26,902 nt of DNA from Saccoglossus kowalevskii (taxonomy: Eukaryota > Hemichordata > Enteropneusta > Harrimaniidae). The stretch's first letter is position 1. Each line of letters starts with the position of its first letter. Both the position numbers and the translations under genes were made by a program. The stretch is taken from positions 85,020 to 111,921 of the forward strand of contig NW_003122909.1 in assembly GCF_000003605.2 (NCBI RefSeq), given 5' to 3'. Positions 16 to 26,875 of this stretch are shown piece after piece. Below the pieces are notes generated by a model, which had not been told where the DNA came from, did no database searches, and worked only from the letters and a program-made list of their open reading frames with translations.

Positions 16-315
16 ATTACACTGATGATGACCAGAACGTTCAGAGCGTAGATGCAGACGCCATATCAACATCAGAAATTGACGTATGGTGGGAGGTTTC
101 ACCAGTTAACTGTGACGTACTGGGTTATAAAGTCAAGTACCATCGTACTGACTACGTCGGTGGTGTCTGGGTCATGGACGTCCCTGGTGCTGACACATCC
201 TCAGCTAGACTGCAGCATCTGGAGTCCTCTACATGGTACATGATGCATGTTGCTGCCTATACGCATCGTAGTGTGTTGGATTATGTACCAGGTTATCCTG
301 TGCAGACACATCAAG
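16..315 (+). CDS. FN3 domain, super-module 1
   Basis: Single 300-nt exon, entering and leaving in phase 1, with the acceptor AG at 14-15 and a GTAATG donor at 316. It encodes about 100 residues of a fibronectin type III fold: VWWEVSPVNCDVLGYKVKYH covers the B and C strands with the core Trp and the Gly-Tyr-x-Val-x-Tyr motif. L-x-x-LESSTWYMMHVAAYT is the usual L..L.P.T.Y.v.V.A.t signature of the E and F strands. It ends in the linker PVQTH, which recurs in the other two FN3 copies. It has one cysteine (VNCD) conserved in all three copies. The upstream part of the gene lies outside the window. Confidence 0.88.
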
Positions 316-3300
316 GTAATGAATGGGGACCGTAAAATGTACAGTATTTAAGATAGTCAGAAAAAAGTGAACATTTCAGTTGGGTTCACGAGGTATGACT
401 ATCTTAAACCACATGTCATTTCAAATTGGTCGTTTATCTTTGTTTTTATTGGTGGGTGTACATTTCCTGTTTGTTTGTTTGTCCTTCCTTGCATACAGTC
501 TTCACGCATACACAATTTACATTGTAGCATACAATCACTGCTATGTAGTAATCTAAAAGTCAATGAAAAATCCCTTGACTTAAACTATATTGATATTAGC
601 ATCATACAGCTATGCTTTTCCTGGAATAGTTGCCATGGTGAAGAATAAATTTATGTGAATTCATGTGCACGTCATTGTTGTAACTGATTGTTGGACAACA
701 GACACAAACAGATTATATCTGGTTTTCTTTAGAAATCTCTGAAAGTTATTATTTTTTTTCCATTGCAACCAGATTGGTTAATAAGGCCGAAGTGTCAGTT
801 CGTTTTGTGTGGCTTAAATTATTCATGAATTTTCTGTTTCCAGTTATCAAACCAAGACCACCGCCCACTGACCCAGGTAAAGACTGCGGAGGTGAATATA
901 CAGCTAAGAATGGTTCACTACTCAGGATTATATCTCCCAACTATCCAGACAGATATGATAGAAATGAAGTGAGTATTAAACGTCTATCACAATTATTGTT
1001 TAGAGCATCTAGAGGGTGCTATTCTGCAAAGCTTTCACATTCATTTTCCATAGGCAAAGCACTGAGAATTGTTAATTACTGTCTCATCTGGGTTCATCAT
1101 AGCAATGTTTCACTTTTATCCAATCACATACAATAATATTGTTTTCTGTATTTGGCCTCTAGCCTTTTCACCACCAGTTCTTTCTTTTCATCACAAATTC
1201 ACAAAATAGTCCCATTTATAGTCTACACTTTTTTTCAAATGATTGAGACCATAACAACCACATTTTTGAGTAAAAAACTGTTGGCCTCAAAATGAGGGTT
1301 CATTACGAGAAGAAAAAAAGTGTAGACAAATTTGGGCGAGGAAGTCCGGTGGTGAAAAGGCTAGGGGGTGTTAATCTGCAAAGCTCTGACATGCAGTTTG
1401 TATATATTCACAGCACTGTGAGTGGTTGATTACTGCTTCATCTGGGTCTATCATTGCTGTGTATCTTAGAGACTTCTCTACAGAAAGATGGTTTGATTAT
1501 TTAGACATTGGTGAAGGCACTGATAACACTGATCTAGATACCAGAGTACACCATCTATCGGGATTCTTCAAACCATGGGATTATTGGAACTCGGACACCA
1601 GTGAGTTGTGGATGACATTCACAAGTGACCTTACTTTCCATCGAAGAGGATTTCTAATAGAATTTGAAGAGATTTTTGTTGGTAAGAAAATAAACAAACA
1701 TCACCTTTCCACTGTCACCATCTTTCTGCTCATCGTCCAAAATGTCAACATACTCCCTCACGAACGTGTTTAGGATTCCACTGAAATGCCTCTAAAGCAT
1801 GCGTCCAATCAGAGTTGGCGTAACATTTCACAACTAGTCATAAACAGAATGTAGTTTTGTGCTTGCGGATCATCGATCATTTTTGTCTCCGCTTCATTCT
1901 TCTGATGATATCTTTTGCTAATATAGTTATATCTTTCTTATTCCTTAGAACTGCCTGAGCCAAAACCTTTACCAACCGAACCAATAGACGAGGAGATATG
2001 TGGAGGAAATGTTTCCATACCTATTGGCGGGTCAGCAACTATATTATCACCAAACTATCCTGAGAACTACAAGAATGATTTGTCATGTGTGTGGCATGTG
2101 ATGTCTGAGAGTGGCAAACGCATTAATGTAAAGTTTGTTGATTTTGAGACCGAATACTGCCATGACCTGCTAGTATTAGGTGATGGACACAATGAAACTG
2201 ACCTGACAACGAGTCAGCTGACTTTATCTGGATCCCTGTCCCCCGAGCCATTTGATTCGGACGGAGACAAAATGTGGTTGACTTTCACTACAGACTATTC
2301 CATCACAGCACGCGGATTTGAACTAAATCTGACAGAAATTGATGACAATGGTATGTGATAATACAAAAACAAACTCTGATGTTTAAAGCGGGAGGGTCGT
2401 CACCTGTGTATGCATGGGAGTCCCAATTGACGATAACAACACACGCTAAAATCGCAAAGGCTCATGGGTAGACGCTTGTTTGTAAACAATGGCATGCTAT
2501 GGCCATCTGACGCATGTGCAGGTGACGACTCCCCTCGCTTTAATAATAGTGGTGTTCATCGTGATACTCTGTGTTCAGTGTGGGTCTCATGCGATGTAAA
2601 CAAAGCATTGTTTATTTTATACAAAATTTGAATAGATTTGTAATATTGTAAAAGAAGTTAGAAATGGTTAAGCATGTTCATTTAAAAATAGCATGAAATG
2701 TTCACACATGCATGATGTCTATGACATTTCCTGCCATATATAAATATGTATTTAGATTCTGTATTTTATTGTTTACTAACTGTAAGGTTGATTGGTAATA
2801 TGTCCATATAAATATTTATATATGTTATATAATTATATGTTATATATTGCAATTTATCATACTTTCATGCGATAATAAAATTTGACGATGCAAATTTAAT
2901 AGTTTTTTGTTTTTCTCTTTCATAGATATTGAATGTGGTGGTACATTGACTATCACAGAAGATGGTCTCCATAGTGTTACCATAGTATCACCTAACTACC
3001 CTGACGACTATAATCACAATGACTACTGTCTGTGGACCATCAATCTAGACGAAGCATTATCTGACCAACACATCTTAGCAGTTGTTGATGACTTCGAGAC
3101 TGAAAAAGGTTATGATTGGCTTGAGATTGGTTCTGGCTCCGATCATCTGGAGTTTTCCACTCTTCTTTATCGTCTTTCTGGATCCGTTGATGGATCATAT
3201 GCAACTCACAACAATGCATTATGGGTACTGTGGACCACTGATCAAAGTGTGAGCAAAGAAGGATATTCAATTCAGTTTGTAGCAGGTAATTAATTAATCA

Positions 3301-6300
3301 CTGATGGTGTCAAGTTTATCAAATGTAGTGATTATGCCCTCTGGAGAAATATTTAAACTTTCCAATGGCATGAACTGCAACAATTCAGAGTCATACACAT
3401 GTATATGCATTCATCCCCAATTTAAATTACTTTTCTTGACATACAACCATGTATGCCACTGATATTATTATGAAGAATTAAGTCATGCCATTACATGCAT
3501 TTACTTTTTGAAATGACATGGGAGCTAAAAATGGCTCTCCTGAACACAGTGATACAAGTGATAAGGAAAGCTATGCTGTTAAAATCCTCTTCAAAGTAGT
3601 ATTTTTAAGTGGAAGGCAAGTGCTGTAAAACATATCTTTTTAGCCAGCACGTTACTTTAGATTCTGTTTCTCATGCCTTAGTTCAAATTCACTAATTTAA
3701 AAATTGCATGTAGCTATTTCAAAGTTCCGTCATGTTATTTTGATTAAAATAATTAATGCACATTATACAGCATGCAAAAATACACACAGTAATAAACAGA
3801 CATTTAGAATTTAGAATTGTGATGTTGTAAATCATTACTGCTAATAAATGATGTAGTAGAGTTTGGGTGAGAAATGTGCTGTATGGTAGTGGTTGATACA
3901 AAGCAGTACTGTTAAATCATGGCTTGACTTAAAAATTTATATCTACTGATTTCATTATTTATTTCAATTCATTTACAGTTGATCCATGTGGTGACCACTA
4001 TACTGAGATATCCGGGAACATCACATCTCCTGGATATCCACAGATGGAGTATCCTCATGGAAGTGATTGCACTTGGAAAATCAGTGTTGAAAACAACATG
4101 TCAATATTGATATCGTTTTCCCAGTTTGCTCTGGAACTAGATTACGATTATGTCCGGATTGGGGAAGGATTGATTCCTAACAACTACCAGTACTATGTAA
4201 GTATAGTCTTCTGGGCATAGACACAATTATTGTGTTTTCAATGTTTAATTTACATTTTTTTAAGTCATTTTTCATATGATGTCCATTTTCTCAGAATAAT
4301 AGCCATTGGTGGAAAAGGTGACAGAATTTCTTGTAGCCGTGACATTTTCAGAATGAGTTCCTTTTATCCTCAAGCATTTCCCAATTTAATTGTATACTAT
4401 CTCTCCTACGGTCACCTATTATAGTTATCTAGGGGGCATTTCCAATTGAACTGGGGGCTTGGAGTGAGGGTTATAGTTAGTATTAGGGTTGGTTGCATTC
4501 AACTGATCGTAACTGCTGTTTTGCTTAGCTGAATATGAATATTCATGTTCGTGGAGTCTAATGATGGAATATTTGTCATCACTACAGGAACTGTCTGGTA
4601 GTGATCTACCCAAAGATATTATTGTTTACCATCATCAAAGCTGGATAGAATTCACTTCAGATAATAGTGTCAGTGACAATGGTTTCTCTCTCACTTATCA
4701 AGGATACATTGAAGGTATGCTCCTTGCCTCATGAATAATGTAACCAGTCTGTTTTGAGTGGTATTCTTTGTGATCCAAAGTATATGTTTAGTAATCACTT
4801 GTTCATTTAACAGTCACATGTCCATATTTAAAGATCATATGTCCATATTAAATGATCACATGTTCAGTTTAAATGATCATATGTCCATATTAAATGATCA
4901 CATGTCCAGTTTAAAGGATCATGTTTATATTTAATAATCACATGCCCATATTAAATAATCTCATGTTCATATTAAATAATCACACATCCATATTTAATAA
5001 TCAGTTCCCAATATTTAATCACATGTCCAAATTTAAAGATCACATGCTCATATATAATAATCAGTTCCCAGTATTTAAAGATGACATATCCATATTAAAT
5101 TATCACATGTTCAAATTTAACAATCACATATCCACATTCATAGTTGATTTTGTACAGCATATTGATTGAATATTTATTTTGTTTTCAGATATTGCTGAGC
5201 CCAAACCATGTGGTGCGGCATACATCGTAAAGTCTGGACAGCCAGTGATAATAGAATCTCCAAACTACCCACAAAACTACCCATCAAACTCGCTGTGTCG
5301 GTGGAATGTTACAACAAAATCAGGGCTCAAAATGACAATACAGTTCAGAGATTTTGCCACTGAGTTAGGAATTGATTGGTTAGACATTGGTGATGGGTTA
5401 GATTCCAATGATCAAAGTAGCAGAGTCAGACACATGTCTGGTCTGTTTTTTATCATGCCAACACCAGTGTTGTCAGAAGGTGACAGTATGTGGTTGGAAT
5501 TCACTTCAGATGCCAGCATTAATTTTAAAGGATTTCAACTCGTGATTAATGAGTTTAATGACAGTAAGTACATTGTATTTCACACTTTTGTCAAAGTATT
5601 AAATATACATGTATGCTAGCTTCCTATTGGTTACTGAACCCAAATTGTGAGCTATCGGAAAATTGCTTGTTTCTTGCCAGAAATGAAGTGTGCATGTTTC
5701 CAGAGCTGTACATGTATATCTCAAACTTCTCTGTCAATTCTCTTCAAACCAAAATCTTTTGGCAAAGTGGGGGCCATATTTGTTGTTATACACTAAAATC
5801 AGTTTTTTGACATGTCCATAACCGGATTTGGGCATTTGTAATTTTTTAAAATGCACTACAATCAGGCGTTTTGAAATGTCTTAAACCAGATCTTGCACAC
5901 ATGTACACTTATTTTGAAACTCACTGAAGGTCTGAAGTGATACCCATGGGAACATGAATGGCTTGTAAACACTTAATACAACTGTATCCTTCATTGATTT
6001 TTCGATCCATTTATTATGCAGCCATAATATGTTATTAATAAATAATGTTAATATATAAATAAAACTGATTAAACATGTCTTTTTCAGCTGAAACATCACC
6101 ACCAAAGCCAACTCCAACAGAGCCATCAGTGTCACCGTCGGTCACACCAACTACATCCGAACCATGTGGATATCATATTGACCTACAGAACAACAACCCC
6201 ATAGACTTGTATTCACCGAATTATCCTGAAGACTATGATAACAATTTGCACTGTGAGTGGACTGTCAGTGCAGATCCAGGAAGAAGAATTGCTGTTACTT

Positions 6301-18300: not shown

Positions 18301-21300
18301 ACTTACTGATATGCATTTTTTTTTACGTTGTACAAGATGTGCCAGAACCAAAGCGTTGCGGTGGAAGTTACATTGTGAAACCAGGCCATACTTTTATTCT
18401 CGAATCGCCTAATTATCCGCAAGACTATTCTCGCAATGAACGATGCCAATGGAACATTACAACCGACTCGGGACTACCAATGTCTGTAGTTTTTTTAGAC
18501 TTTCTAACAGAGGAACACTTTGATTGGGTAGACATTGGAAATGGACTAGACCCAACCGATGTTGATTCTCGTGTTCGCCATGAATCAGGCTCAAGTATAC
18601 CTCCACCATTTTATTCATCTGGTGCTGACATATGGGTGACCTTTTACACAGACTTTACCATTGTTGAGAGAGGTTTTGTCCTGGTGATAGTTGAAAGGAA
18701 CGACAGTAAGTAATCTTTGAATGTATATTCTAAATCTCAATTTCTTATGGCGTAAGGTGCAGGCAGTTTAATAAAGTAAAGGATTTATTTCTTTACAGTA
18801 TGTAATTAGAAAGTTAATATTAAATAATTGAGTTAAACTTATAATCATTGTCAAGCACAAACTTTCTCATTGCAAAAATCATTCCAATAATAAAATAATA
18901 AAAAAATACTTTCTCACCTAAATTTGTTTGCACTTTGTTTCTCATATTCTTTTTTTATTTTTTTATTTTTTTTTATTTTTTTTTTTATTTTTTTTTGTGC
19001 TAGGCGACAGTTCCGGACATTAAGTGTCACTGTTGTCTCTCCTGACTTTTTTTCTGTATGTGCAAATTACAAGTGCTAGTGACGACACATAGTGCATTTT
19101 GCCACAGAAGTCATATTCATGTTTGGGACTACATGACAGGGCTGTGTGGCCATCTCTCTGTCAAATGGCAATTTGTAATGCGCTATCCTGGTGTCAACCA
19201 GGCCCGGTCGAACACAAGCACCTGCGGACCTTAACCAAGGTTCCCCCAAAGTCGTATTCGTTAGTGAATGAATCTTGGCCAGTGGAATTGGCCTGCCCAT
19301 TGAGTCTGTGGCACACTCACCCAGGGTAGGGGGTCGACCCTTTGATGTTCAGTCTAAGGTAGGATTTGAACTTGGGTCTACCGATCATGAGACTGGTGCA
19401 ACAACCAATATTTCTGGAAATGAACCTTAATGTTAGAACCAACAGACAAAATTTGAGTCAGTTTTTACTCAAAAAATTTGCCTATTTTTTGTCCCAATCT
19501 TCAGACTATAAGCGAGACTATTTTGTGAATTTGTGAAGAAAGGAGGGAACTGGTGTTGAATAGGTTAATGGTGAATAAACTGTTGATAAACTGTAAAATA
19601 GTCAAAGTTACTATTAAACTTTGTTAACCATTTTTCATTTACCTGTTTCAGCTGAATCTAGTCCTCCAAAGCCAGCACCTACTGCCACTACTGCACCTGT
19701 GATCTGTGGAGGTCATCACGATATAGAGCAGGATCCTATATTTATTACCTCACCCAATTACGAAGAAAACTATAACAACAATGATTATTGTGAATGGACT
19801 GTAACATCTGTAGCAGGCAATAGAATTAGAATAGTGTACCATGACTTTGAAACCGAATTGAGGTATGTGTCTTCTCCTTCAAATTATTAGTCCCCGTTCG
19901 TGCATCCGTGCGTTCATCACATTCAAACTTCACACATACATCATACATAACATTATACATGTGCACATCAATTTGTTTCATGATCTGATTCAAGATGGCC
20001 ATCTGACGTGTTTATGTTCCAACTATATTGCTATAAACAAAACTATTTATCTTAAATTTGATAACTAACAGGGACTGTACTATGCGTGGCTTGTTATATA
20101 GAGATACATTTGTGCACTTATTCTAAACCATTCACTTTTTATTATAAGATAAATATGCTATACACATGTGTATATAGAATAGAATAATTGTTTTATTGGC
20201 ATGGTAGAGAAAAGTTTTCATTTTTTGGGCACTATGGCTAATTAAAACTTTAAAAGGGGAAGAGCGGAAATGGTTTTAGCTGGGACAGTTACAAGTGCAA
20301 AATGGCTGTCCCAACGGACAGGTGAATACAGATATAAATTTCTTACTGACTTACTGACCAAATGGACTGGTTCAAAGTTACTCATGTCAAGAAAATTGCT
20401 TTTATAGTTTTCAAGATTCATATAATAATGATGAGCCAAGAATGATAATTTTATTTCAAATATTATGTCGTAATTTATCTTAATGTACTAGAGAGAGGTA
20501 CACCATCAATTGGGACAAGCACATTTATTCTCCAACCTGCTCAATGGACAGGCAATTTCAACACCTGATGATGCACAACAGTCCACTATGTATGTCATTC
20601 TTTTGTTTAGATATGACTACTTGGAGATAGGAAGAGGACATGACATTACAAATTTTCAGTCACTTCTACGACATAACAGTGGTAGCCGAGTTCCCAGTCC
20701 ATTCACTACAGATGTTGATAGAGTCTGGTTGAAGTTTGTCAGTGACCACAGTGTTACCTACAAGGGATTTAATGTGGAACTCAGAGACAATGGTAAGAAG
20801 TCTGGGAAATATTAATTTGGTAATAACTTCGCTAAGTTGGTGTAAGGTATAACCCAGACGACTTGGGTATTTCAGTAATACCATGAATTCTGCCAATATT
20901 CTGACAACACGTAATCTTGCTAATCTGCAAGAATGTTCCCCAAATTAATGTTCTTGAGGTTACTGGAGACTAGTTCAAATCAATTTATGTTAATAGTTTT
21001 GTAGTTATTGTGCTGATCCCGCTGTAGTGCCATGTTAAAATCCAGTACCAGGATTTGTATGTGACAGACTCAATGAGGGGGGGTCAATGCCATTTGCAAA
21101 GATTCATTCATTAATGGACGCAACTTTGGGGGAACATTTGTTAAGAACCACAAATGCCTGTATTCGATTATACTTGACTTATGCCTGGATAAGATATTAA
21201 ATTATCATACATTGCATTATTTTTGACCCAACATGTGTAAAAAAATATATTATATTTATCTTTAGCATTGTGATTGCCTCGCAAAATCAGGATAAGCAAC

Positions 21301-24300
21301 ATTGAGATTAAGATGTGCATGTATTCAGGAGGATTGTTATTCTATCAACATATGTTTAAATTTATAGTGTTTTTTGTGATCTAATATGAATATGTATGGA
21401 ATTATGTTGTATTACAGATTGTTTTTCTGAGCATACTATTACAAGTGGTGGGTCTATTACTATCCGATCCCCGGGCTATCCGGAAAGTAACTACGATAAC
21501 AACTATTTCTGTGAATGGATAATTACTACGGAGAATGGTGGCACTATTAGAGTAGAAATCAAGGGCTTCAGAACAGGTAAATAGAATCCAAGTAATCATA
21601 AGTCATTTTTATTCGTACATATCACATCTGAGTTTGAAATTTCCAGTTTTACTATTTTAGTTTTTCGGTCTATTATTACTCTCTAGAACCATATGTACCA
21701 AATAACGTTGTTTGTGTTGTAAAAAAAATATAATATGAGGTTATTAACCCTGTGAGTGCAAAAGTCAACTTTGACACCATTCACAAAAAGTTCCATTTAT
21801 AGTCTGCTTTTTTCCACATGAAATGTTTATTAAAGAATTATAAGCAATGTCACATTTTGTCTGTTTAGTTCAAAATTAATATTGAATTTAGTGAAAATTA
21901 AATCGGGAAAACAAATTTGGCATTCAAAGGTTCAAGGGAGTATTGCAAAAATATACATGAAGGATGAATTTAAAAATTTAAAAGACGTTTTGCAGATAAG
22001 ATCGATAAGCATTATTCTGAAAGAGAACTTCCTCTGTTTAGTTACTAACAAAATGAACCTATAAACTTTTTTCTTCTTAGAGCAAAATCATGACTGGGTT
22101 GATATGGGTTCAGGATCTGACTCTGTAGATTTTGCATCAAGGTTTGTTCATATCTCCGGTCAAGTAGATCCAAATGCATTTTTCACCGGTTCAGAGTCTC
22201 TCTGGATGACATTTGAAACTGATGCCTCAGTGAATGATGAAGGCTTTGAGATAATCTTCTATGATGGTAAGTTGCCTGACGTCCACTGTCAGAAATTTTC
22301 TATAGAGTATAACTTAAGTAGAGTATAATTTTATTAATATCTGCATGAACTCAATTTGCATAATATTTGGTGAATTTCACTGGCAACATAGTGGTTGTAG
22401 CAACAGATTCATGATCACTAGGCAGAATTTCAAATATTTCGTTGGGTCAACCCCTACCCTGGGTGATTGTGCCACAGACCTCAGACTACTAATACAACAG
22501 ACAGGAAACGCAGCGCTTTCTATTGAAGTAATGCGTGCCACGTTTTTTTAAGTTATCAGTTCTTATCATATCTAGTAAACATTGCAGAACAAAAGATTAT
22601 CATTAGATAAAAATTAGATAACATTGCAGAACAAAAGATTATCATTAGATAAAAATTAATCTTAAAATAACACAAGATCTATTCATATTCCAATCAACTA
22701 TTGCGATACATCGCGAGACATATTATGTAATTCTTATTACCTGCATGACCACACCAAAATTCAAAAATTTAGTGAATCTGAGGACGATAGTTATGAACGT
22801 ATAACACGTACTATGAAGACGAGCACAACAAAAATAACACACCCTCAGTTTTTACCGATAACTGGCTTATGCTGATACACTGAGAGATATCATGTATATG
22901 ACACTAGCTATCCCACGTTTCGGCACCTCTGAACACAAAAACAAAACTGTTAACACACAAAGTGGTATGATCGCTCGAAACGCAGCGATATGCCCTTCCT
23001 GAAAAAAACAGCGAGAAATATCGTTTCAAAGTTGCTCATTATATATTCAAAAACTATTTGCGGTATATACTAAGACATTCAGTTACTTGTAACTCACCTA
23101 ATTGTTGGTGGATTCTTAAAATTCTTACACACAGCTGCAAAGGTCAAATGGTCCTGAACGCATCTCCCATTGTTTTAAAAATGTCCGGATCCGTTTTATG
23201 AAGAAATATGCATTTTCCACTGGTTGAGATTCATTCATTAACGAATGTGACTTTGGAAGAACCTTGGTTAAGGTCTGCAGGTGCTAGTGCTCAACCGGGC
23301 ATGATTGTTGCCAAGATAGGACATTAAATGGCCTTTATAATAAGAAAGATGATCATACAGCCCTGTCCCAAACATTAAAGACATCAAATCTATAAATACA
23401 GATCTATATATACTTGTCTACTATTAAATATAATCATATCTTGTATACCCATAGATGGCTGTGTAGCTGAGGAGTATACAGACTCTGAAGGTGAAATCTT
23501 ATCTCCATTCCATCCCGCTGAATATCCCAACAATGCGAACTGTGTATGGTTTCTTAAGATATCAGATGGCCATGATATCAAAGTCACATTCCATGCTTTC
23601 AGACTTGAGGAGGGGCATGACTTCCTGTACATTGGTTATGGCAATGATCCCACATCAGACTACTATCTGGTATGTATTACCCAGTATATGTAAATATCTA
23701 GAATAATATCAATGTCAGCGAGGCTAGACTTTAATTCCAAGCATCTGCTATTTTGGAGTAGTAATGATTTTTTTATGTAATACTTATTCTCTTTTAATTT
23801 TCTTATTTAGTTTTTCACTGGTTATGACTTACCAGAAGATCTTGTCTTGCACAGCAGTGAAACCTGGTTTAGATTTGTGAGTGATAGAACAAATGTGGAC
23901 ACTGGTTTCAATATTACATACAAAGCCATTTGTAAGTGTATTCTAGGGTATATAATCAACGGCTTCCTATTTGTGGCATTTGAGGTACATGTATATATTT
24001 CTCTATGCAATAAACATTATTAAATAAACTGTGAAACTAAACAATATTTTGTATCTTCAGGTCCAACAGGCTATGATTATCACATTGTTGATGGAGAAGA
24101 AAAGTGTTACAAATTTGTTACCGTGCCAACCAAATCATGGGATGAAGCGAGAGAGGACTGTTTATCTACTCTTCACGGTGATTTGGTTATAATTGATGAT
24201 CAGGCAGAGTTGGATTTCATCAATGCGCAAATGACTTTGAATTACTGGATTGGTAAGTTAATTTTTGAACATTTGTTTCCTTAGACCCCAGTGAAAGTCA

Positions 24301-26875
24301 CTCTGTCGCTGTAGAACCCCAGTGAGATTTTCCATGCTACAAAATTCCCCAATTTTCACTGCCATATGAAATTTGTGAAATTATAGGGGTTTACAGTTAT
24401 ACTGTATTTTTGTCAAAAGAAAAATCATGCACATCCATGTTGGCCTGACTGCATCAGAGTTAGATCCCAGTGTGTCTAGACCATTCTCAACTGAGCACTC
24501 TGAATCAGTCTCTGTCATAGGTGATTTTTGAATATTCGAGACACGCACGTACAGCGACCGCTTGAACATTATGATACGCAGAAACTACTAAGACGAACAG
24601 ATCATTATGACCTCACTTAACCAAAAAATTGTTGTTTTCTGTGATTTATCGGATCATTTTAACAGAATGACAATTGAAATCCCATTCACGCATTTCTCAT
24701 GTTGAATGATCCACAGAAAATGTTAGTACTGCTCCTTCATGCTTTTGGGCTCAAGAGTGGGTCTACTTTTTTGTGTTTGGCAGTGATTCCATGCTAATTA
24801 ACAAATTTACTGAATTTTGACTTGAGGAAATGTTTTTATATAAAATATAAATAAATAAATAACAAAACTATGAGTAATATAGCGTATTTGAAAAAAAACA
24901 TGACTGTATTCCCTTGTTTCAATTAGGTTATTCCGACTTGTCAGTTGAAGCCCGATGGAGATGGGTCAATTGTAGAGATGCCTCGGTATGGGACCAATCC
25001 AAGTGGGGAAGCGGACAGCCATCGAGTGGTCTTTATGAAGATTGTGGTCTTGCTCGAAGTAATGAATTCTATGATGAGGAGTGTATGCTAAACCATGCAT
25101 ATGTATGTGAAATTACTCCAAAAGGTAAGCAGTTATTGAACAATGAATACAGAGGTAGCAGAGAGGGTGTTTTTATACTGTACAGTACAACCTGTCAAAA
25201 CCAATGAAACCATTTGAGTCAATTTTCAGTTTTTACTCCAAAAAATTGGCTGGTTCTGAAAAAGGGCAGACTTATTTTATTATTATTATTGAAAAAGTTA
25301 AAGATCCAGTATACAAAAAATGTAATTTTTATGTGTGCTTCTATTACAAATACAATTATATTAGAGAAAATACAGTTGTAACATTATCACTTTGTTGACA
25401 TTTGTCTTACAGAATTTGAATGGCCAGAAGACATCAATGTACAGGCAGTTGATGCTGTTGGTATATCACCCTATGATATTCATGTTACCTGGACAGTATC
25501 CGACTTCAACTGTGATGTGATTGGCTACAGAGTTAGATATAGGCGATATGATTGGTTGGGAGGGTATACTTACTTGGTTGTTGATGGTGGTGATACTGAT
25601 GAAGCATTTCTGTCAAACTTAGAAAGCTCTACAACATACGTAATCTACGTTGCTGCCATTACTCCTAGATTCCTAATGCCTTATGTTGGACCCGCTGAAG
25701 CACAGACTCATGAAGGTACTTAAATTTTGTAGGTGGATTCAAGCACAAGTGCAGTGCTGGGAATATTTCCCATGTTCTCAGATGCATAAAATCTTGTATA
25801 TATTCGACCAATTCAAAATGATTTTGCTGTGAATGTCCTCGCTACTAGTGATATCTAATTTTGTGCATTGTTGATTTATAGTTGTGAAGCCTCCAGAGCC
25901 ACCTGTGGAACCTGAGAAACCCTGTGGCAGTAACTACACAACAAAGGAAGGCACAGTTGTCAGAATATCATCACCCGACTATCCGGAAAAATATGATCAC
26001 AACTTGGTGAGTGTCATATGGTGTTAATCTTTGCAGATAAACTTATAGCGGATTCATTAATATCAATCTGCGAAAAATTGCCTCTGATTATATTTGTATA
26101 CTTGGATCTGTTGTCCTTGTTGCATAAGCCCCTTGAATTTCTGTCAATTTCACTCCCTCAATGAAGAGAAATGAAGACATGGGCAACTATCTGGCCCATC
26201 CAGATTTTTACTTGTAGGTTGTTGTGGCTGTGCTCCATCTTTGACTACATACAAACAGTAATAAAGCTTGTAAATTGCTTCCAGATCTCATACAATCAGC
26301 AACCAATCACCATTTGCTATACAGGGTAGTATTCAGTAAGGCTTAATGTAATTGGGTGACACATCCCAATAAAGGAGTGTTGTCTGAATGTGATTTGCAT
26401 AATTGTTTGCCATTAGAGATGAAACATACCACTGATTGGAGTTAATAGCAATCAGAGCTAGTGTGAATTTTAGTCAGATTGTGCATGAATGTTCCTTTCA
26501 AAATACAGCAAACAGCGTGATGTCTCTGAACAAATAATCAAAAAATATTAGTTATTATTATGCAAACAAATTATTTAATGTTAATTAACATTTTTATGTT
26601 TTAGCACTGCCAATGGCACGTAGGATCTTCTGGTGCTGGAAAACTTCTGCTTGTCCACATTCGTGACTTTTCAACAGAAGGGTGGTTTGATTGGTTAGAC
26701 ATTGGTGAAGGGTCAAACCCAAGTGATGATGATTCACTTGTACATCACATGTCTGGTCACTTCATATCGTGGGACTTCTGGACATCTTCTACAGAGCAGA
26801 TCTGGTTAACCTTTGACACTGATAGTACAATTCATTTCCGTGGTTTTCTTCTTGAAATTGAGGAAATCGATGCAG
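16..26875 (+). CDS. Giant multidomain gene (FN3, CUB x8, CTLD super-modules), internal part, 35 exons
   Basis: One gene spans the window and is open at both ends. Domain order is FN3-CUBx8-CTLD, FN3-CUBx8-CTLD, FN3-CUB. I joined 35 exons using GT donors and AG acceptors; the total is 7,992 nt with no internal stop. Every boundary between domains is a phase-1 intron, so each domain is a symmetric 1-1 unit, the class suited to exon shuffling and in-frame duplication. Such domains occur in extracellular proteins, so a secreted or cell-surface product is expected. No signal peptide, transmembrane segment, start or stop lies in the window. Function is unknown; adhesion, matrix or recognition roles are only plausible guesses. 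The alternative of several adjacent genes is unlikely because no initial or terminal exon appears and phases stay compatible throughout. Confidence 0.9.
316..843 (+). other. Intron, no recognised content
   Basis: This 528-bp phase-1 intron lies between FN3-1 and CUB A1. It has a pyrimidine-rich stretch near 741-765. The open frames inside it lack any domain similarity. I see no repeat or RNA gene. Confidence 0.6.
844..1681 (+). CDS. CUB A1 (two exons)
   Basis: Exons 844-968 (125 nt) and 1414-1681 (268 nt) are joined by a phase-0 intron. About 131 residues begin with the proline-rich linker VIKPRPPPTDPGKDCGG. CUB landmarks follow: CGG, SPNYPDRYDRN, HCEW, FSTERWFDYLDIGEG, LSGFF and FTSD...RRGFL. 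The split sits just before the second cysteine, as in A2 and A3. The motif W-D-Y-W-N-S before the E-L-W strand is particular to position A. Glu of STE, Asp of FDYL and Asp of FTSD lie where calcium ligands lie in calcium-binding CUBs. There are only two cysteines. Confidence 0.9.
1159..1364. repeat. Palindromic dispersed repeat in the CUB A1 intron
   Basis: The outer arms 1159-1175 and 1348-1364 are perfect 17-nt reverse complements (ctagccttttcaccacc). A second inner pair, 1221-1236 and 1312-1327, is a perfect 16-nt inverted repeat (gtctacactttttttc). The intervening part resembles sequence at 19455-19555 (reverse complement), 21781-21813 and about 25205-25262. This looks like a non-autonomous fold-back or MITE-type element; its termini and target duplication are not certain. 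Confidence 0.7.
1949..2350 (+). CDS. CUB B1 with a third cysteine
   Basis: Single 402-nt exon, phase 1-1, with the acceptor TTCCTTAG and donor GTATGT. It encodes about 134 residues. The N-terminal linker ELPEPKPLPTEPIDEE is rich in proline and acid. Then come CGGNVS, SPNYPENYKND, SCVWHV, VDFETEYCHDLLVLGDG, LTLSGS and TTDYSITARGF. The cysteine in TEYCHD has no partner where a normal CUB carries C4, so this domain has three cysteines. The same residue recurs in CUB B2. The usual DWLDIG is changed to DLLVLG here. N-glycosylation sequons are visible (NVS, NET, NLT). Confidence 0.9.
2382..2543. repeat. Fold-back (MITE-like) element
   Basis: The arm at 2382-2413 (tttaaagcgggagggtcgtc...) is an imperfect reverse complement of 2512-2543 (...gacgactcccctcgctttaa). 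The element is about 162 bp and lies in the intron between CUB B1 and C1. It has the shape of a short non-autonomous DNA transposon with terminal inverted repeats. The remaining intron to 2925 is AT-rich with nothing recognised. Confidence 0.65.
2926..3285 (+). CDS. CUB C1
   Basis: Single 360-nt exon, phase 1-1, with the acceptor CATAG and donor GTAATT. It encodes about 120 residues. Unlike A, B and F there is no proline-rich linker: the exon opens at once with DIECGG. Landmarks are SPNYPDDYNHND, YCLW, DDFETEKGYDWLEIGSG, YRLSGS and TTDQSVSKEGYSIQF. Only the two N-terminal cysteines are present. The stretch SGSVDGSYAT before ALW matches SGSLVTGSYTS in C2, so the two are position equivalents. 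Confidence 0.9.
3286..3978 (+). other. Intron, no recognised content
   Basis: This 693-bp phase-1 intron lies between CUB C1 and D1. It is AT-rich. The antisense open frame near 3719-3901 has no recognisable domain. I see no RNA gene or clear repeat. Confidence 0.6.
3979..4714 (+). CDS. CUB D1 (two exons)
   Basis: Exons 3979-4196 (218 nt) and 4588-4714 (127 nt) are joined by a phase-0 intron. About 115 residues start with a short linker, VDPCG. Landmarks are SPGYPQMEYPHGSDCTW, ALELDYDYVRIGEG, then ELSGSDLPKDI after the intron and FTSDNSVSDNGFSL. The intron falls immediately before the (E)LSG segment, as in D2, H1 and H2. The second exon is 127 nt in both D copies. There are two cysteines. 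Confidence 0.88.
4197..4587 (+). other. Intron, no recognised content
   Basis: This 391-bp phase-0 intron splits CUB D1. The short open frames on both strands carry no domain signature. Nothing else is recognised. Confidence 0.6.
4813..5152. repeat. 21-bp minisatellite, about 15 units
   Basis: Degenerate tandem units of the form gatcatatgtccatattaaat run through the intron before CUB E1. Two sub-types alternate (catatgtccatat and cacatgttcagtt), and a later variant reads aatcagttcccaatatttaat. The period of 21 is a multiple of three, so part of it stays open as an artificial heptad-like frame. That frame stops at 5167-5169, before the exon, and is not coding. Confidence 0.85.
5189..5563 (+). 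CDS. CUB E1
   Basis: Single 375-nt exon, phase 1-1, with the acceptor GTTTTCAG and donor GTAAGT. It encodes about 125 residues: linker DIAEPKPCG, then ESPNYPQNYPSNSLCRW, FATELGIDWLDIGDG, SRVRHMSG, MWLEFTSDASINFKGFQL. There are two cysteines. The SRV-R/H-HMSG motif is shared with the CUB A domains, which supports E being a duplicate of A. The exon lies directly behind a 21-bp minisatellite that ends close to its acceptor. Confidence 0.91.
5791..5895. repeat. Tandem duplication, 63-bp spacing
   Basis: The segment starting at 5791 (cactaaaatcag) recurs with changes at 5854 (cactacaatcag), followed in both by ttttgacatgtc / ttttgaaatgtc and accggatttg / accagatcttg. It lies in the intron between CUB E1 and F1 (5564-6087), which shows nothing else. 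Confidence 0.6.
6088..7061 (+). CDS. CUB F1 (two exons)
   Basis: Exons 6088-6325 (238 nt) and 6883-7061 (179 nt) are joined by a phase-2 intron just before the DYLEIG strand. About 139 residues make this the longest CUB of the copy, because of an extended Pro/Ser/Thr linker (SPPKPTPTEPSVSPSVTPTT). Landmarks are EPCGYH, SPNYPEDYDNNLHCEW, DFTTEL, WDYLEIGQG, RRDSGSSLPSPFTT, FITDSTVKHRGFHL. There are two cysteines. The codon split by the intron gives Ile here and Arg in F2. The second acceptor is preceded by a 68-bp tandem duplication. Confidence 0.87.
6739..6877. repeat. 68-bp tandem duplication beside a splice acceptor
   Basis: Two copies start at 6739 and 6807 with caaccacat and share taagatgtcagtttctgtc. 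The second runs into the functional acceptor ttgacatttcag of the second CUB F1 exon (AG at 6881-6882). In the first copy the matching place reads tctgacaatcaac and has no AG, so only the downstream copy can serve as acceptor. Confidence 0.8.
7163..9735 (+). CDS. CUB G1 (two exons, longest intron)
   Basis: Exons 7163-7318 (156 nt, donor GTTAGT) and 9550-9735 (186 nt) are joined by a phase-1 intron of 2,231 bp, the longest in the window, filled with repeats. About 114 residues start without a linker at ECGS. Landmarks are YPESEEQYGMNEYCKW, EKNFDFLEIGEG after the intron, DMSTRLLKASG, VWMSFSSDGSRHGDGFTVDF. The second exon is 186 nt in both G copies. The first donor is non-optimal but lies exactly where the G2 donor lies. 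There are two cysteines. Confidence 0.84.
7319..8149 (+). other. First part of the CUB G1 intron, weak tandem repeat
   Basis: A diverged tandem pair of about 126-bp period is visible at about 7708-7940 (acatttcaatgaatcttag / acatttcaatgaaacttgg, each followed by a catagatg and a gacaatgcacagacc-type segment). The sequence before it (gtcattttttagct, near 7665) resembles tcatttttagct at about 18118. No gene is recognised. Confidence 0.5.
8150..9531. mobile_element. 1.4-kb repetitive element with internal ~150/300-bp array
   Basis: The left part is cgtccgtccgtgcgtgcg followed by caaacttcacacacacatcat. The middle contains about eight copies of a core like attcaagatggccgaatggc (near 8283, 8433, 8584, 8736, 8884, 9036, 9184, 9316). 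The 8640-9240 part is organised as a dimeric repeat of about 299 bp. The right end is ataactaacggggactgtgc then atgcatggcttgt. A shorter copy with both ends but without the array lies at 19891-20094, which supports a real element. There is no transposase or reverse transcriptase frame, so it is non-autonomous or a fragment; its class is unknown. Confidence 0.75.
9736..10211 (+). other. Intron, small hairpin only
   Basis: This 476-bp phase-1 intron lies between CUB G1 and H1. It has one perfect 9-bp stem, ctagccatc at 9958-9966 with gatggctag at 9988-9996. I see no RNA gene or larger repeat. Confidence 0.55.
10212..11009 (+). CDS. CUB H1 (two exons)
   Basis: Exons 10212-10426 (215 nt) and 10889-11009 (121 nt) are joined by a phase-0 intron; both lengths are the same in H2. 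About 112 residues: DACM, SPNYPSEYAHNSHCIW, FSLEQSRDYLFIGEGDDP, then TLTGSDLPEDY and FESDWTVVDTGFNITYEAE. The first glycine of the usual CGG is lost (ACMT). The intron position and the TGSDLPED motif match CUB D. The exon ends one nucleotide into the Cys codon that opens the CTLD. Confidence 0.87.
10631..10755. repeat. 41-bp tandem repeat, three units
   Basis: Three imperfect units carry (t)ggcccacc..tctatcttacaa and a cataaagg-type end, starting near 10631, 10672 and 10713. They lie in the intron that splits CUB H1 (10427-10888). The rest of that intron shows nothing. Confidence 0.7.
11010..11393 (+). other. Intron, no recognised content
   Basis: This 384-bp phase-1 intron lies between CUB H1 and CTLD1. 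The antisense open frame near 11054-11272 shows no domain. It is AT-rich towards the acceptor. Confidence 0.6.
11394..12735 (+). CDS. C-type lectin-like domain 1 (two exons)
   Basis: Exons 11394-11576 (183 nt) and 12541-12735 (195 nt) are joined by a phase-1 intron after FWI. About 126 residues of a long-form CTLD: CPIGY opening, GRCYR, WDDARHECL on helix 1, GDLVILETEDEYQYV, FWIGLSD (the WIGL core), WKWIDC, KDCTI, RECHTELPYICE. Six cysteines fit the three long-form disulfides; a seventh (WIDC) is extra. EPN or QPD is absent, and NTWSAREC replaces the WND region, so classical calcium-dependent sugar binding is unlikely. Confidence 0.87.
11713..11903. repeat. Inverted repeat in the CTLD1 intron
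   Basis: The arm 11713-11741 (tactttattatcgcttgga...) is an imperfect reverse complement of 11876-11903 (...tccagcgaaaataaagta). The interior is A/T-rich. It is probably a small fold-back element. Confidence 0.6.
12114..12237. repeat. 124-bp fold-back element
   Basis: The arm 12114-12141 (atgaatctcccacagcgtca...) is an imperfect reverse complement of 12205-12237 (...ggtgctgtaggggattcat). It is MITE-like in shape and lies in the same intron as the 11713-11903 inverted repeat. The intron from 12238 to 12540 shows nothing else. Confidence 0.7.
12736..13133 (+). other. Intron between super-modules 1 and 2, no recognised content
   Basis: This 398-bp phase-1 intron separates CTLD1 from FN3-2. I see no promoter, start codon in context, terminal exon or poly(A) signal set that would end one gene and begin another. 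The sequence is AT-rich and unremarkable. Confidence 0.6.
13134..13433 (+). CDS. FN3 domain, super-module 2
   Basis: Single 300-nt exon, phase 1-1, the same length as the first FN3. The acceptor is TTTCTAG and the donor GTAAGT at 13434. Landmarks are FTLDDQNVQHVDAE, VHVTWDVSPVKCDILGYRVK, then L-T-G-L-Q-SSTWYASYVAGYT and the tail VPADPVQTHA. The single cysteine (VKCD) is conserved. Its last ~22 nt together with the donor site are repeated four more times downstream at ~103-bp spacing. Confidence 0.93.
13412..13850. repeat. ~103-bp tandem array carrying the FN3-2 exon end and its splice donor
   Basis: Five copies of (gat)cctgtccaaacccatgctg are each followed by a donor-like GT: at 13434, 13536, 13639 and 13741 (gtaagtg, gtaagtg, gtaagtg, gtaaatg) and a degenerate one at 13846 (gtatgtg). 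Spacings are 102, 103, 102 and 105 bp. The first copy is the real exon end; the others lie in the intron. The unit also holds ggtttacttggtaagttaga and an AG preceding a short frame. Confidence 0.93.
13500..13845 (+). other. Four candidate 36-nt microexons within the array
   Basis: Segments 13500-13535, 13603-13638, 13705-13740 and 13810-13845 are each exactly 36 nt. Each is preceded by AG (attccAG, atttaAG, attcaAG, attcaAG) and followed by GT, and each is open in the phase set by the upstream exon. They would read GFVTYDPVQTHA, GYITSDPVQTHA, DFVTSHPVQTHA and GCVTSDDVQTHS, and would lengthen the FN3-CUB linker by 12 residues each. Polypyrimidine tracts before them are weak and usage is unproven. 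They may be mere by-products of the duplication. Confidence 0.35.
14004..14506 (+). CDS. CUB A2 (two exons)
   Basis: Exons 14004-14128 (125 nt, identical in length to A1 and A3) and 14236-14506 (271 nt) are joined by a short phase-0 intron of 107 bp. About 132 residues: linker VRKPPSPLPEPSKDCGG, SPNYPDNYENNQ, ICEW, RTEHLFDWVDIGEG, SRVHHMSGFFLPWTYWESST, FSTDYTIAWKGFML. There are two cysteines. The glutamate and aspartates of the putative calcium site are kept (RTE, FDW, STD). Confidence 0.93.
14507..15561 (+). other. Intron, 1,055 bp, no recognised content
   Basis: This phase-1 intron lies between CUB A2 and B2. It is AT-rich with T-runs near 14799-14812 and directly before the acceptor (15540-15553). 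The antisense frames overlapping the exon downstream are shadows. I see no RNA gene or clear mobile element. Confidence 0.55.
15562..15969 (+). CDS. CUB B2 with a third cysteine
   Basis: Single 408-nt exon, phase 1-1, with an unusually strong polypyrimidine tract (long T run) before its acceptor. About 136 residues: linker EPVPTEKPDPSDPPVLAPE, CGGNIT, SLNYPGDYDNDLECLW, VDFETEYCHDWLDIGNG, LHLSGS, TTDYSITARGFHL. The lone Cys of TEYCHD matches B1, while the DWLDIG strand is canonical here. The TTDYSITARGF stretch is identical in B1 and B2. A serine replaces the usual Pro of SPNYP. Confidence 0.92.
16253..16600 (+). CDS. CUB C2
   Basis: Single 348-nt exon, phase 1-1, with the acceptor TTTTCATAAG and donor GTAAGC. 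About 116 residues with no proline-rich linker: it starts GCGQ. Landmarks are KTPNYPQHYSNNEICKW, NDFATERFFDWLEIGVGG, VDFSSTVFRLSGSLVTGSY, VWALFTSDNSISRRGFDIDF. There are two cysteines. The VDFSS..F segment resembles VDFASRF of CUB G2, one of the hints that C and G are related by an older duplication. Confidence 0.92.
16601..16985 (+). other. Intron, no recognised content
   Basis: This 385-bp phase-1 intron lies between CUB C2 and D2. It is AT-rich, and no repeat or RNA gene is seen. Confidence 0.6.
16986..18047 (+). CDS. CUB D2 (two exons)
   Basis: Exons 16986-17218 (233 nt) and 17921-18047 (127 nt, as in D1) are joined by a phase-0 intron. About 120 residues: VDPCGGH, SSPLYPDYPYPHSSSCIW, FHLERNHDWLIIGNG, then ELTGPEIPKEI and FTSDNSVDREGFHLTY. 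The first exon is 15 nt longer than in D1 because of extra residues after CIW (around APVMTMESGQR). There are two cysteines. The intron holds a fold-back repeat. Confidence 0.9.
17711..17822. repeat. Inverted repeat in the CUB D2 intron
   Basis: The arm 17711-17732 (gtgaccatgtgacaatctga...) is an imperfect reverse complement of 17799-17822 (...ttttgtgacatggtcac). The rest of the 702-bp intron (17219-17920) has a GC-richer patch near 17350-17420 without any recognised function. Confidence 0.6.
18337..18705 (+). CDS. CUB E2
   Basis: Single 369-nt exon, phase 1-1. About 123 residues: DVPEPKRCGGSYIVKPG, ESPNYPQDYSRNERCQWNIT, FLTEEHFDWVDIGNG, SRVRHESGSSIPPPFYSSG, FYTDFTIVERGFVL. The acceptor is GTACAAG behind a T-rich run and the donor is GTAAGT. 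There are two cysteines. The linker EPKxCG matches E1. The PFYSSG loop resembles PSPFTT of the F domains. Confidence 0.92.
18942..19420 (-). mobile_element. tRNA-derived SINE, minus strand
   Basis: Read on the minus strand, the element begins near 19420 with tRNA-like sequence: accagtctcatgatcggtag then gttcaaatcc, the latter a good Pol III B box (19362-19371). A body of about 350 nt follows. It ends in an A-rich tail seen on the plus strand as T-runs broken by single A (18950-18996). The tRNA 5' part with the A box is degenerate or cut. Body fragments recur in later introns at 21063-21165, 22440-22490 and 23210-23380, which shows a dispersed family. The short frames in it are not genes. Confidence 0.75.
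19455..19560 (-). repeat. Copy of the 1171-1282 repeat, inverted
   Basis: The plus strand reads gagtcagtttttactcaaaa and then gactattttgtgaatttgtg followed by a ggaactggtg end. This is the reverse complement of the 1171-1282 region with scattered changes. It lies between the SINE and the CUB F2 acceptor. Confidence 0.7.
19652..20792 (+). CDS. CUB F2 (two exons)
   Basis: Exons 19652-19862 (211 nt) and 20611-20792 (182 nt) are joined by a phase-2 intron at the same codon as in F1. About 131 residues: a Pro/Thr/Ala linker (TESSPPKPAPTATTAP), ICGGHHD, SPNYEENYNNNDYCEW, DFETEL, RYDYLEIGRG, RHNSGSRVPSPFTT, FVSDHSVTYKGFNV. The usual proline of SPNYP is replaced by Glu. There are two cysteines. The intron holds a deleted copy of the element found in the G1 intron. 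Confidence 0.9.
19891..20094. mobile_element. Internally deleted copy of the 8150-9531 element
   Basis: The left part (cgttcgtgcatccgtgcg, then attcaaacttcacacataca and tttgtttcatgatctgattc) and the right part (tgctataaacaaaactat, ataactaacagggactgt, ggcttgt) match the ends of the larger element in the G1 intron. The tandem array between them is missing. It sits in the intron that splits CUB F2. The rest of that intron to 20610 is unrecognised. Confidence 0.72.
21063..21165 (+). repeat. SINE fragment
   Basis: The plus strand has acagactcaatg, gattcattcattaatgga and aactttgggggaacatttgt. These match the reverse complement of about 19235-19315 of the SINE. Only the body remains. It lies in the intron between CUB F2 and G2 (20793-21417), otherwise unremarkable. 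Confidence 0.65.
21418..22266 (+). CDS. CUB G2 (two exons)
   Basis: Exons 21418-21576 (159 nt) and 22081-22266 (186 nt, as in G1) are joined by a phase-1 intron. About 115 residues: DCFSE (no CGG), RSPGYPESNYDNNYFCEW, KGFRT, then EQNHDWVDMGSG, VDFASRFVHISG, FETDASVNDEGFEIIF. No proline-rich linker. There are two cysteines. The second exon is preceded by a TTTTTTCTTCTTAG acceptor. Confidence 0.9.
21770..21820 (+). repeat. Fragment of the palindromic repeat family
   Basis: The stretch tcacaaaaagttccatttat followed by agtctgcttttttc matches 1198-1236 in the same orientation. It lies in the intron that splits CUB G2 (21577-22080), where nothing else is recognised. Confidence 0.55.
22440..23380 (+). 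mobile_element. SINE copy in two parts split by ~720 bp
   Basis: At 22440-22490, gggtcaacccctaccctggg and gtgccacagac match one part of the SINE body. At 23210-23380, tttccactggttgagattca and gaagaaccttggttaaggtc, ending cagccctgtcccaaacat, match the next part in the same orientation. The 22491-23210 stretch between them is unrelated and could be an insertion. It includes a 42-bp tandem duplication (acattgcagaacaaaagatt..., 22579 and 22621). No gene is recognised. Confidence 0.6.
22579..22659. repeat. 42-bp tandem duplication
   Basis: Two near-identical units begin with acattgcagaacaaaagatt and continue atcattagataaaaatta, at 22579 and 22621. The high identity suggests a recent event. Confidence 0.88.
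23455..23931 (+). CDS. CUB H2 (two exons)
   Basis: Exons 23455-23669 (215 nt) and 23811-23931 (121 nt) have the same lengths as in H1 and are joined by a phase-0 intron of 141 bp. About 112 residues: DGCVAEE, LSPFHPAEYPNNANCVW, FRLEEGHDFLYIGYG, FFTGYDLPED, FVSDRTNVDTGFNITYKAI. The SPNYP motif has drifted to SPFHP. There are two cysteines. The final nucleotide starts the Cys codon of the following CTLD, as in copy 1. Confidence 0.9.
24061..25124 (+). CDS. C-type lectin-like domain 2 (two exons)
   Basis: Exons 24061-24252 (192 nt) and 24927-25124 (198 nt) are joined by a phase-1 intron after YWI. About 130 residues: CPTGYDY, KCYKF, WDEAREDCL, GDLVIIDDQAELDFI, YWIGYSD, WRWVNC, KWGSGQPSSGLYEDCGL, EEC, AYVCEI. 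This copy keeps a more lectin-like loop (W-G-S-G-QPS-S) but has QPS where mannose binders have EPN and galactose binders QPD. EFYDEEC replaces the WND strand. Seven cysteines, the extra one (WVNC) matching CTLD1. Confidence 0.9.
24309..24396. repeat. Short inverted repeat in the CTLD2 intron
   Basis: The arm 24309-24331 (ctgtagaaccccagtgagat...) is an imperfect reverse complement of 24377-24396 (gaaattataggggtttacag). It is perhaps a tiny fold-back element. The remaining intron (to 24926) holds an AT-rich run at 24836-24900 and nothing recognised. Confidence 0.5.
25205..25262 (+). repeat. Fragment related to 19455-19480
   Basis: The stretch tttgagtcaattttcagttt then ttactccaaaaaattggc resembles 19450-19482 (gagtcagtttttactcaaaa). 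It lies in the 288-bp intron between CTLD2 and FN3-3. Confidence 0.5.
25413..25715 (+). CDS. FN3 domain, super-module 3
   Basis: Single 303-nt exon, phase 1-1, starting a third super-module. Landmarks are FEWPEDINVQAVDA, HVTWTVSDFNCDVIGYRVRY, L-S-N-L-ESSTTYVIYVAAIT and the tail VGPAEAQTHE. The cysteine (FNCD) is conserved with both other FN3 copies. It is one codon longer than the other two. The tail QTH is kept although the preceding PV is replaced by EA. Confidence 0.92.
25882..26875 (+). CDS. CUB A3 (two exons)
   Basis: Exons 25882-26006 (125 nt) and 26605-26875 (271 nt, as in A2) are joined by a phase-0 intron. About 132 residues: linker VVKPPEPPVEPEKPCGS, SSPDYPEKYDHNL, HCQW, FSTEGWFDWLDIGEG, LVHHMSGHFISWDFWTSST, FDTDSTIHFRGFLLEI. 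The donor at 26876 is GTTAGT. It is the last exon pair in the window; CUB B of copy 3 should follow beyond the right edge. Confidence 0.91.
26007..26604 (+). other. Intron, no recognised content
   Basis: This 598-bp phase-0 intron splits CUB A3. It is AT-rich towards its acceptor, with no clear repeat, RNA gene or regulatory site. The A introns of copies 1 and 2 are 445 and 107 bp with no evident similarity to this one. Confidence 0.6.

Follow-up and report, generated by a model that had tools for sequence, protein, structure and literature searches.

The window analyzed here is a stretch of 26,902 nucleotides (C1551:85020-111921) of the 572-Mb genome of Saccoglossus kowalevskii. Rebuilding the gene model from splice sites and reading phase, we found 35 exons in this window, making up two complete 16-exon modules plus the three opening exons of a third, each complete module being laid out as an FN3 domain, eight CUB domains (A-H) and one C-type lectin-like domain (CTLD). 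Module I occupies positions 16-12735 (3,648 coding nt), module II positions 13134-25124 (3,645 coding nt), and module III contributes its first three exons only (25413-26875). An AG acceptor and a GT donor are present at 35/35 exons, phase is kept across all 34 exon junctions, and the 2,663 codons of the spliced frame contain no stop. Introns are in phase 1 between domains, phase 0 within A, D and H, phase 2 within F, and phase 1 within G and the lectin domain. Three acceptors (12541, 16253, 18337) score weakly and were picked by phase and homology; the remaining window splice sites are mostly the top-scoring ones of any phase. The exons are as follows (window coordinates; placed by splice sites and frame except where a line says otherwise).

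16..315, +, module I FN3 exon (phase 1-1); also Pfam fn3
844..968, +, module I CUB A exon 1
1414..1681, +, module I CUB A exon 2
1949..2350, +, module I CUB B, single exon; proline-rich linker, unpaired Cys
2926..3285, +, module I CUB C, single exon
3979..4196, +, module I CUB D exon 1
4588..4714, +, module I CUB D exon 2
5189..5563, +, module I CUB E, single exon
6088..6325, +, module I CUB F exon 1, Pro/Thr/Ser-rich linker at start
6883..7061, +, module I CUB F exon 2 (phase 2-1)
7163..7318, +, module I CUB G exon 1
9550..9735, +, module I CUB G exon 2
10212..10426, +, module I CUB H exon 1
10889..11009, +, module I CUB H exon 2
11394..11576, +, module I CTLD exon 1; also Pfam Lectin_C
12541..12735, +, module I CTLD exon 2, weak acceptor, phase-1 GT donor at end; by phase, homology and Pfam
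13134..13433, +, module II FN3 exon; also genome search
14004..14128, +, module II CUB A exon 1
14236..14506, +, module II CUB A exon 2
15562..15969, +, module II CUB B, single exon, unpaired Cys; also cubilin CUB structure match
16253..16600, +, module II CUB C, single exon, weak acceptor; by phase, homology and frame
16986..17218, +, module II CUB D exon 1
17921..18047, +, module II CUB D exon 2
18337..18705, +, module II CUB E, single exon, weak acceptor; by phase, homology and frame
19652..19862, +, module II CUB F exon 1
20611..20792, +, module II CUB F exon 2
21418..21576, +, module II CUB G exon 1
22081..22266, +, module II CUB G exon 2
23455..23669, +, module II CUB H exon 1
23811..23931, +, module II CUB H exon 2
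24061..24252, +, module II CTLD exon 1
24927..25124, +, module II CTLD exon 2, phase-1 GT donor at end
25413..25715, +, module III FN3 exon
25882..26006, +, module III CUB A exon 1
26605..26875, +, module III CUB A exon 2; the array runs on past the window (also downstream exon profiles)

This model agrees with the copy starts given in a preliminary description of the sequence (16, 13134 and 25413, with spacings of 13,118 and 12,279 bp) and with its exon lengths (FN3 300/300, first exon of A 125/125/125, second exon of D 127/127, second exon of G 186/186, and H 215+121 in both modules), and it reproduces both coding totals. The domain order and intron phases said there to be common to the copies are borne out by GT-AG sites, matching phases and the open frame. 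Counting domains by profile, as had been proposed, gave eight CUB stretches, one Lectin_C and one fn3 in each complete copy: all eight CUB stretches per module lie above the curated cut-off (PF00431; whole-protein scores of 499 bits in I and 473.4 bits in II), as does Lectin_C (PF00059; 56.8 and 53.6 bits), while fn3 (PF00041) scores 31.7 and 26.4 bits against a cut-off of 25. The private motifs recur as well, with W-x-[YF]-W in 6/7 visible A domains (absent in module IX), TEYCHD in 5/6 B domains and TTDYSITARGF, in its exact form, in modules I and II only. Two introns of the window carry tandem repeats. A 102-bp unit in 4.3 copies (window 13412-13852) lies in the intron after the module II FN3 exon and takes in the end of that exon and its splice donor, and an array with 150- and 299-bp periods (window 8260-9312) lies in the module I G1-G2 intron, which at 2,231 bp is the longest of 82 measured introns.

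Around the window we examined C1551:30001-230000, where 106,258 bases are N, and located downstream modules with exon profiles made from the window exons. The array continues in register and on the same strand over ~100 kb, so the third window copy is not the last, and the expected still larger gene appears as recurrence of the module as far as C1551:184,873. Eight FN3 exons are visible (starts at C1551 85035, 98153, 110432, 135060, 146746, 157961, 170333 and 182366), and the segments beyond the window, all placed by exon profiles, are these.

C1551 133392-134802, same strand as window, module IV tail
C1551 135060-145688, same strand as window, module V, complete
C1551 146746-157172, same strand as window, module VI, complete
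C1551 157961 (start) to 170028 (end of last lectin exon), same strand, module VII
C1551 170333-181826, same strand as window, module VIII
C1551 182366-184873, same strand, start of module IX, with N from 184915 onward

Runs of N border the array on both sides (C1551 52137-85019 upstream, 184915-213662 downstream), leaving both gene ends out of sight. Two further runs of N interrupt it, at C1551 111922-133391 (after the start of module III) and 160004-169933 (within module VII). Between the FN3 exons of III and V lie 24.6 kb, about twice the usual spacing of 11.2-13.1 kb; from this distance of about two module lengths we infer a start of module IV, whose link to III would run across 21.5 kb of N. 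Eight visible FN3 exons together with this spacing point to at least nine modules. The tabulated coding sequence of the array amounts to 91 exons, 21,074 nt and ~7,025 residues, three of the exons being slightly short because their starts were placed inside the exon. All 91 have a GT donor and 89/91 starts have an AG, the two others being one misplaced start and one exon beside an assembly gap. If the N stretches carry full modules, the protein would reach ~10,000 residues, and the upstream N could add more. Modules I, II, V and VI have identical exon order and phases. The one departure in module VIII is CUB F, which is split in phase 2 in those four but forms a single unbroken exon there (C1551:177344-177760), with no F1/F2 intron. 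As downstream splice sites were searched in the expected phase only, the downstream phases are consistent rather than independent evidence. Two local features lie near the start of module VI. A 115-bp run of N (C1551:148188-148302) has flanks that duplicate each other (the A1-A2 intron and the start of exon A2), and the copy past the gap has lost single T's, so that it looks like an assembly-gap artefact rather than a duplicated exon; further upstream, the intron joining modules V and VI holds a tandem array with a unit of ~82 bp (C1551:145741-146510).

At 7/7 visible junctions the GT donor that closes the lectin exon is in phase 1, as is the start of the FN3 exon that follows, across joining introns of 257, 288, 304, 398, 539, 788 and 1,057 bp (within-module introns: median 443.5 bp, range 92-2,231, n = 82). 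Being short and in phase 1, the seven joining introns argue for one giant gene, and an FN3-CUBx8-CTLD super-module repeated in tandem inside one gene, as first proposed, is the best reading of the locus. We give a probability of roughly 0.78 to the window being an interior piece of one giant gene that grew by duplication at three levels and codes for an extracellular multivalent binding protein; a single transcript would presumably run over all modules.

Alternatively, each module might be a gene of its own in a tandem cluster of paralogues, encoding one FN3-CUBx8-CTLD protein. Divergence between modules at silent sites is mostly close to saturation (198 exon pairs, median pS 0.74), as in old tandem paralogues, AATAAA/ATTAAA-like poly-A words occur in 4/7 joining introns, and hydrophobic ATG frames (at least 7 of 10 residues) occur in 6/7, one of which, at the VI-VII junction outside the window, runs for 20 residues and has a phase-1 donor at 157427 scoring 3.4 (array donors: median 5.3, minimum 2.4). 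However, by our own estimate such words are at about chance level for AT-rich DNA, no further hydrophobic ATG frame at the seven junctions checked has a phase-1 donor scoring above 1.4, and at both window junctions, where separate first exons were sought, no hydrophobic ATG frame is accompanied by a phase-1 donor. Given the phase-1 exits and entries 257-1,057 bp apart and the lack of convincing first exons, we judge separate genes to be quite improbable. A different reading keeps one locus and lets intron retention after a lectin domain yield many transcripts and proteins of one to many modules. Retaining any visible joining intron would bring an in-frame stop 3-27 codons past the donor, which with the poly-A-like words in four of the seven makes shorter isoforms possible; but early stops are expected from almost any intron, and the joining donors are kept at 7/7 junctions, suggesting that joining is used, and we regard this reading as unlikely.

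We assessed the visible domains for residues of known function. A Glu, Asp, Asp triad marks calcium-binding CUB domains, and by alignment it is present in 43/43 visible CUBs of the array, compared with 4/15 other CUBs from eight loci of the same genome, a count that is a lower bound given the automatic alignment; the array CUBs are thus predicted to bind calcium. CUB domains usually have four cysteines in two disulfides (C1-C2 and C3-C4), whereas the array CUBs are not of this four-cysteine form, since the first pair (C1, C2) is found in 43/43 and all four in 0/43. A lone third cysteine, at the C3 position, occurs in 5/6 B domains and one also in C of module VIII, and every FN3 (8/8) has a lone cysteine, hinting at possible inter-domain or inter-chain disulfides; that the FN3 cysteine might pair with that of CUB B is only an idea, and module IX has the first without the second. 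Six cysteines are present in 6/6 visible CTLDs. Sugar-binding C-type lectins have an EPN or QPD motif plus WND, and this calcium-sugar motif, read by eye, is complete in 0/6 array CTLDs: modules I and VIII have none of it, II has QPS only, IV has EPS/WQD, V has EPD/WID and VI has QPS/WND. With the motif ranging from absent to partial, not all of these domains can bind sugar in the usual way. Linkers rich in proline precede A and B in modules I and II, and the linker ahead of F is rich in Pro/Thr/Ser or Pro/Thr in the same two modules. Matched by sequence to solved structures, module II CUB B is closest to a cubilin chain (E 3.5e-24), the module V CTLD to LY75 and its kin (LY75 E 2.4e-29, summed over several CTLDs) and FN3 to fibronectin.

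Comparing the CUB domains with one another revealed a nested order. The best match of 41/43 visible CUBs lies in the same position class of another module, and position-class labels change 7 times on the CUB tree against a shuffled mean of 30.6, which together exclude chance. On the maximum-likelihood tree C, D, E, F and H each fall on one side of a branch, while A, B and G are not single groups, the outliers being A of IX (outside the rest of A+E), B of IX (apart from the other Bs) and G of I. Support is 100/99 for D+H, 95/84 for A+E and 84/95 for C+G (not starred), and B with F is not resolved. Mean identity is clearly raised for A-E (44%), slightly for D-H (36%) and no higher than in other classes for C-G (33%), and only D and H have an intron position in common. 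These relationships suggest that a four-CUB set ABCD may have doubled to ABCD-EFGH before the whole module was multiplied; doubling is the simplest reading, though B/F, C/G and the introns besides D/H do not clearly support it. For module IX, the simplest reading of its outlying domains is that it may keep an older state.

We thus envisage growth at three levels, in which single CUB domains would have been duplicated, a four-CUB set would have been doubled to eight (A-D and E-H), and a block of FN3, eight CUBs and CTLD (16 exons, ~12 kb) would have been repeated at least nine times over ~100 kb. A higher-order duplication of two modules (24 kb) was considered, the FN3 exons of III and V being 74% identical and the lectin domain of II being closest to that of IV, and was rejected: domain A of III scores 54% against V and a similar 52-55% against I, II, VI and VIII, so the III/V similarity looks local to the FN3 exon. 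The array exons look to be under purifying selection: dN/dS, computable for 18 of 43 domain pairs, is 0.05-0.42, a rough range, as few of the pairs are unsaturated and several of the 18 have dS above 1.5.

Modules V and VI depart from this general divergence in a patchwork that follows exons. Six of their exons (A2, E, F1, F2, G1, G2) are 95.9-99.6% identical in DNA, and silent-site pS is 0.06 in G2, F2 and G1, 0.13 in E and 0.15 in A2, the five lowest of the 198 pairs, the sixth-lowest being 0.42 (L1 of V/VI); F1, which is outside the pS table, is 99.6% identical over 228 compared bases. In the same pair of modules FN3, A1, B, C, D1, D2, H1, H2 and L2 lie at pS 0.64-0.82. Near-identity ends at most 12 bp from the splice sites of A2, E, G1 and G2; at F1 its limit lies 22 bp ahead of the exon. 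Six flanking-intron comparisons (150 bp each) are about as similar as shuffled sequence (five at no more than 1.1 SD, 3' of G2 at +1.8 SD), whereas the homologous F1-F2 intron of V/VI, taken as a control, is far above it. Within the F1-F2-G1 stretch, identity drops from 97.8-99.6% in the exons to 87.6% and 89.9% in the two short introns that they enclose. Within the CUB F linker of module V (C1551 ~142160-142175) there is one base fewer than in VI and the frame is shifted, either a real lesion or an assembly error.

Repeated gene conversion best explains this pattern, and exon-limited conversion itself is well supported; since conversion needs homology, it would stop at diverged introns. The FN3 exons of III and V (pS 0.49) and L1 of V/VI look like older cases. 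Extreme purifying selection on the six exons, in place of recent conversion, would fit with the selection seen on exons of other modules, but it would have to hold silent sites at pS 0.06-0.15 in five exons with nine others of the same modules at 0.64-0.82, and we find it very improbable. More improbable still is that mis-assembly made or scrambled the repeats. The 115-bp N run with duplicated flanks does adjoin a near-identical exon, but V/VI near-identity stops near splice sites, which read assembly cannot know, and the copies are not duplicated reads, as most differ at most silent sites and their introns are unrelated.

Conversion between the genomic copies is our preferred account; a bolder reading concerns the template. 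The array could be kept uniform by copying exons one at a time regardless of introns, with spliced RNA or its cDNA as a possible template: exons E, F1, F2, G1 and G2 would be consecutive in mature RNA, and cDNA-templated recombination could leave a module VIII without its F1/F2 intron, as could an intron that was never there. A single E-G cDNA tract was not pasted in whole, because V and VI have both retained those introns, and the data are accounted for as well by genomic conversion that intron divergence holds in check. We consider an RNA or cDNA template unlikely. The V/VI mosaic offers a clean natural test of gene conversion against exon borders.

The domain kinds of the array are known ones, and super-repeats are known in titin, but the FN3-CUBx8-CTLD block came up at a single locus of the genome. 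A genome search with the module II FN3 exon, with 12 candidates scored, returned eight that are exons of the array and no close match outside it, the best of the other four being 35% identical (E 0.007). CUB and CTLD matches are common, with at least 150 and at least 147, respectively, among the best 150 candidates scored for each. A literature screen limited to open-access titles and the starts of abstracts found no gene of the FN3-CUB-CTLD kind, which is weak evidence of absence.

Among known systems, the A-band super-repeats of titin are one close parallel. There, groups of domains are repeated as a unit by serial internal duplication, domains in equivalent positions are most alike and the longer repeat arose from a shorter one (PMC10665226). 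The repetition of a whole block stands as first described, and its being unusual has to be tempered, since the titin super-repeats arose by multi-domain block duplication. Titin differs in being intracellular, with A-band repeats of Ig and FN3, where the array unit is of an extracellular-type FN3-CUBx8-CTLD composition, and homogenization limited to exons between two modules is a feature of the array. Cubilin resembles the array in its long tandem run of CUB domains; it has 27 CUBs, binds ligands in a calcium-dependent manner and carries EGF domains before the CUB array, and it is not known to have an FN3, a CTLD or such a module periodicity. By contrast, FN3 and CTLD are present in both complete window modules, array CUBs have the first Cys pair only, and Pfam gave no EGF match in modules I and II, setting them apart from cubilin. 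The mannose-receptor family (LY75, PLA2R, MRC2) provides the best structure matches for the module V CTLD; its members have many CTLDs, with ricin-like and FN2 domains, where the array has one CTLD per module among CUBs. Finally, the sea urchin egg bindin receptor EBR1 is a large egg-surface protein with repeated CUB and another domain (PMC9265791), similar to the array in its repeated structure with CUB and different in being of the ADAMTS family with thrombospondin repeats. Pfam found neither a thrombospondin repeat nor a protease/reprolysin domain in modules I-II.

Taken together, the observed exons, phases, domains, repetition and conserved triads make it likely that the product is a giant protein that acts outside the cell and binds in a calcium-dependent, multivalent way. 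This protein would most likely be secreted or surface-exposed and ~10,000 residues or more in length, about seven thousand of them seen and the rest expected from spacing. It would present a long string of predicted calcium-binding CUBs, of which some sit on proline-rich linkers, and each repeat would add a single FN3 and a single lectin-like fold. This arrangement may give very high avidity for an extracellular ligand in adhesion, in an egg coat or in binding at mucosal surfaces. Provided that the modules out of sight are complete, the protein would hold some 65 or more predicted calcium-binding CUBs and rank, in our judgement, among the larger animal adhesion-type proteins. The array is in addition a readable record of nested duplication inside an apparent single gene.

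Three further loci came up in the domain searches. One (C2346:345273-366382) is another multi-CUB gene of related style, with 8 CUB matches (2 weak), mostly a whole CUB per frame, and two of the four non-array triads; the array FN3 and lectin profiles had no match in the 23 kb read (837 bases N). On the minus strand of C3233:136650-144356, 16 CUB matches lie in one open frame of 2,656 residues, and the 4 CUBs examined there have four cysteines each, unlike the array CUBs. At C4110:4287-36599, Lectin_C matches of near-equal score occur on both strands (5 minus, 4 plus) every ~8.0 kb, which gives this locus the look of a tandem array of 8-kb units, each with two lectin-like frames.
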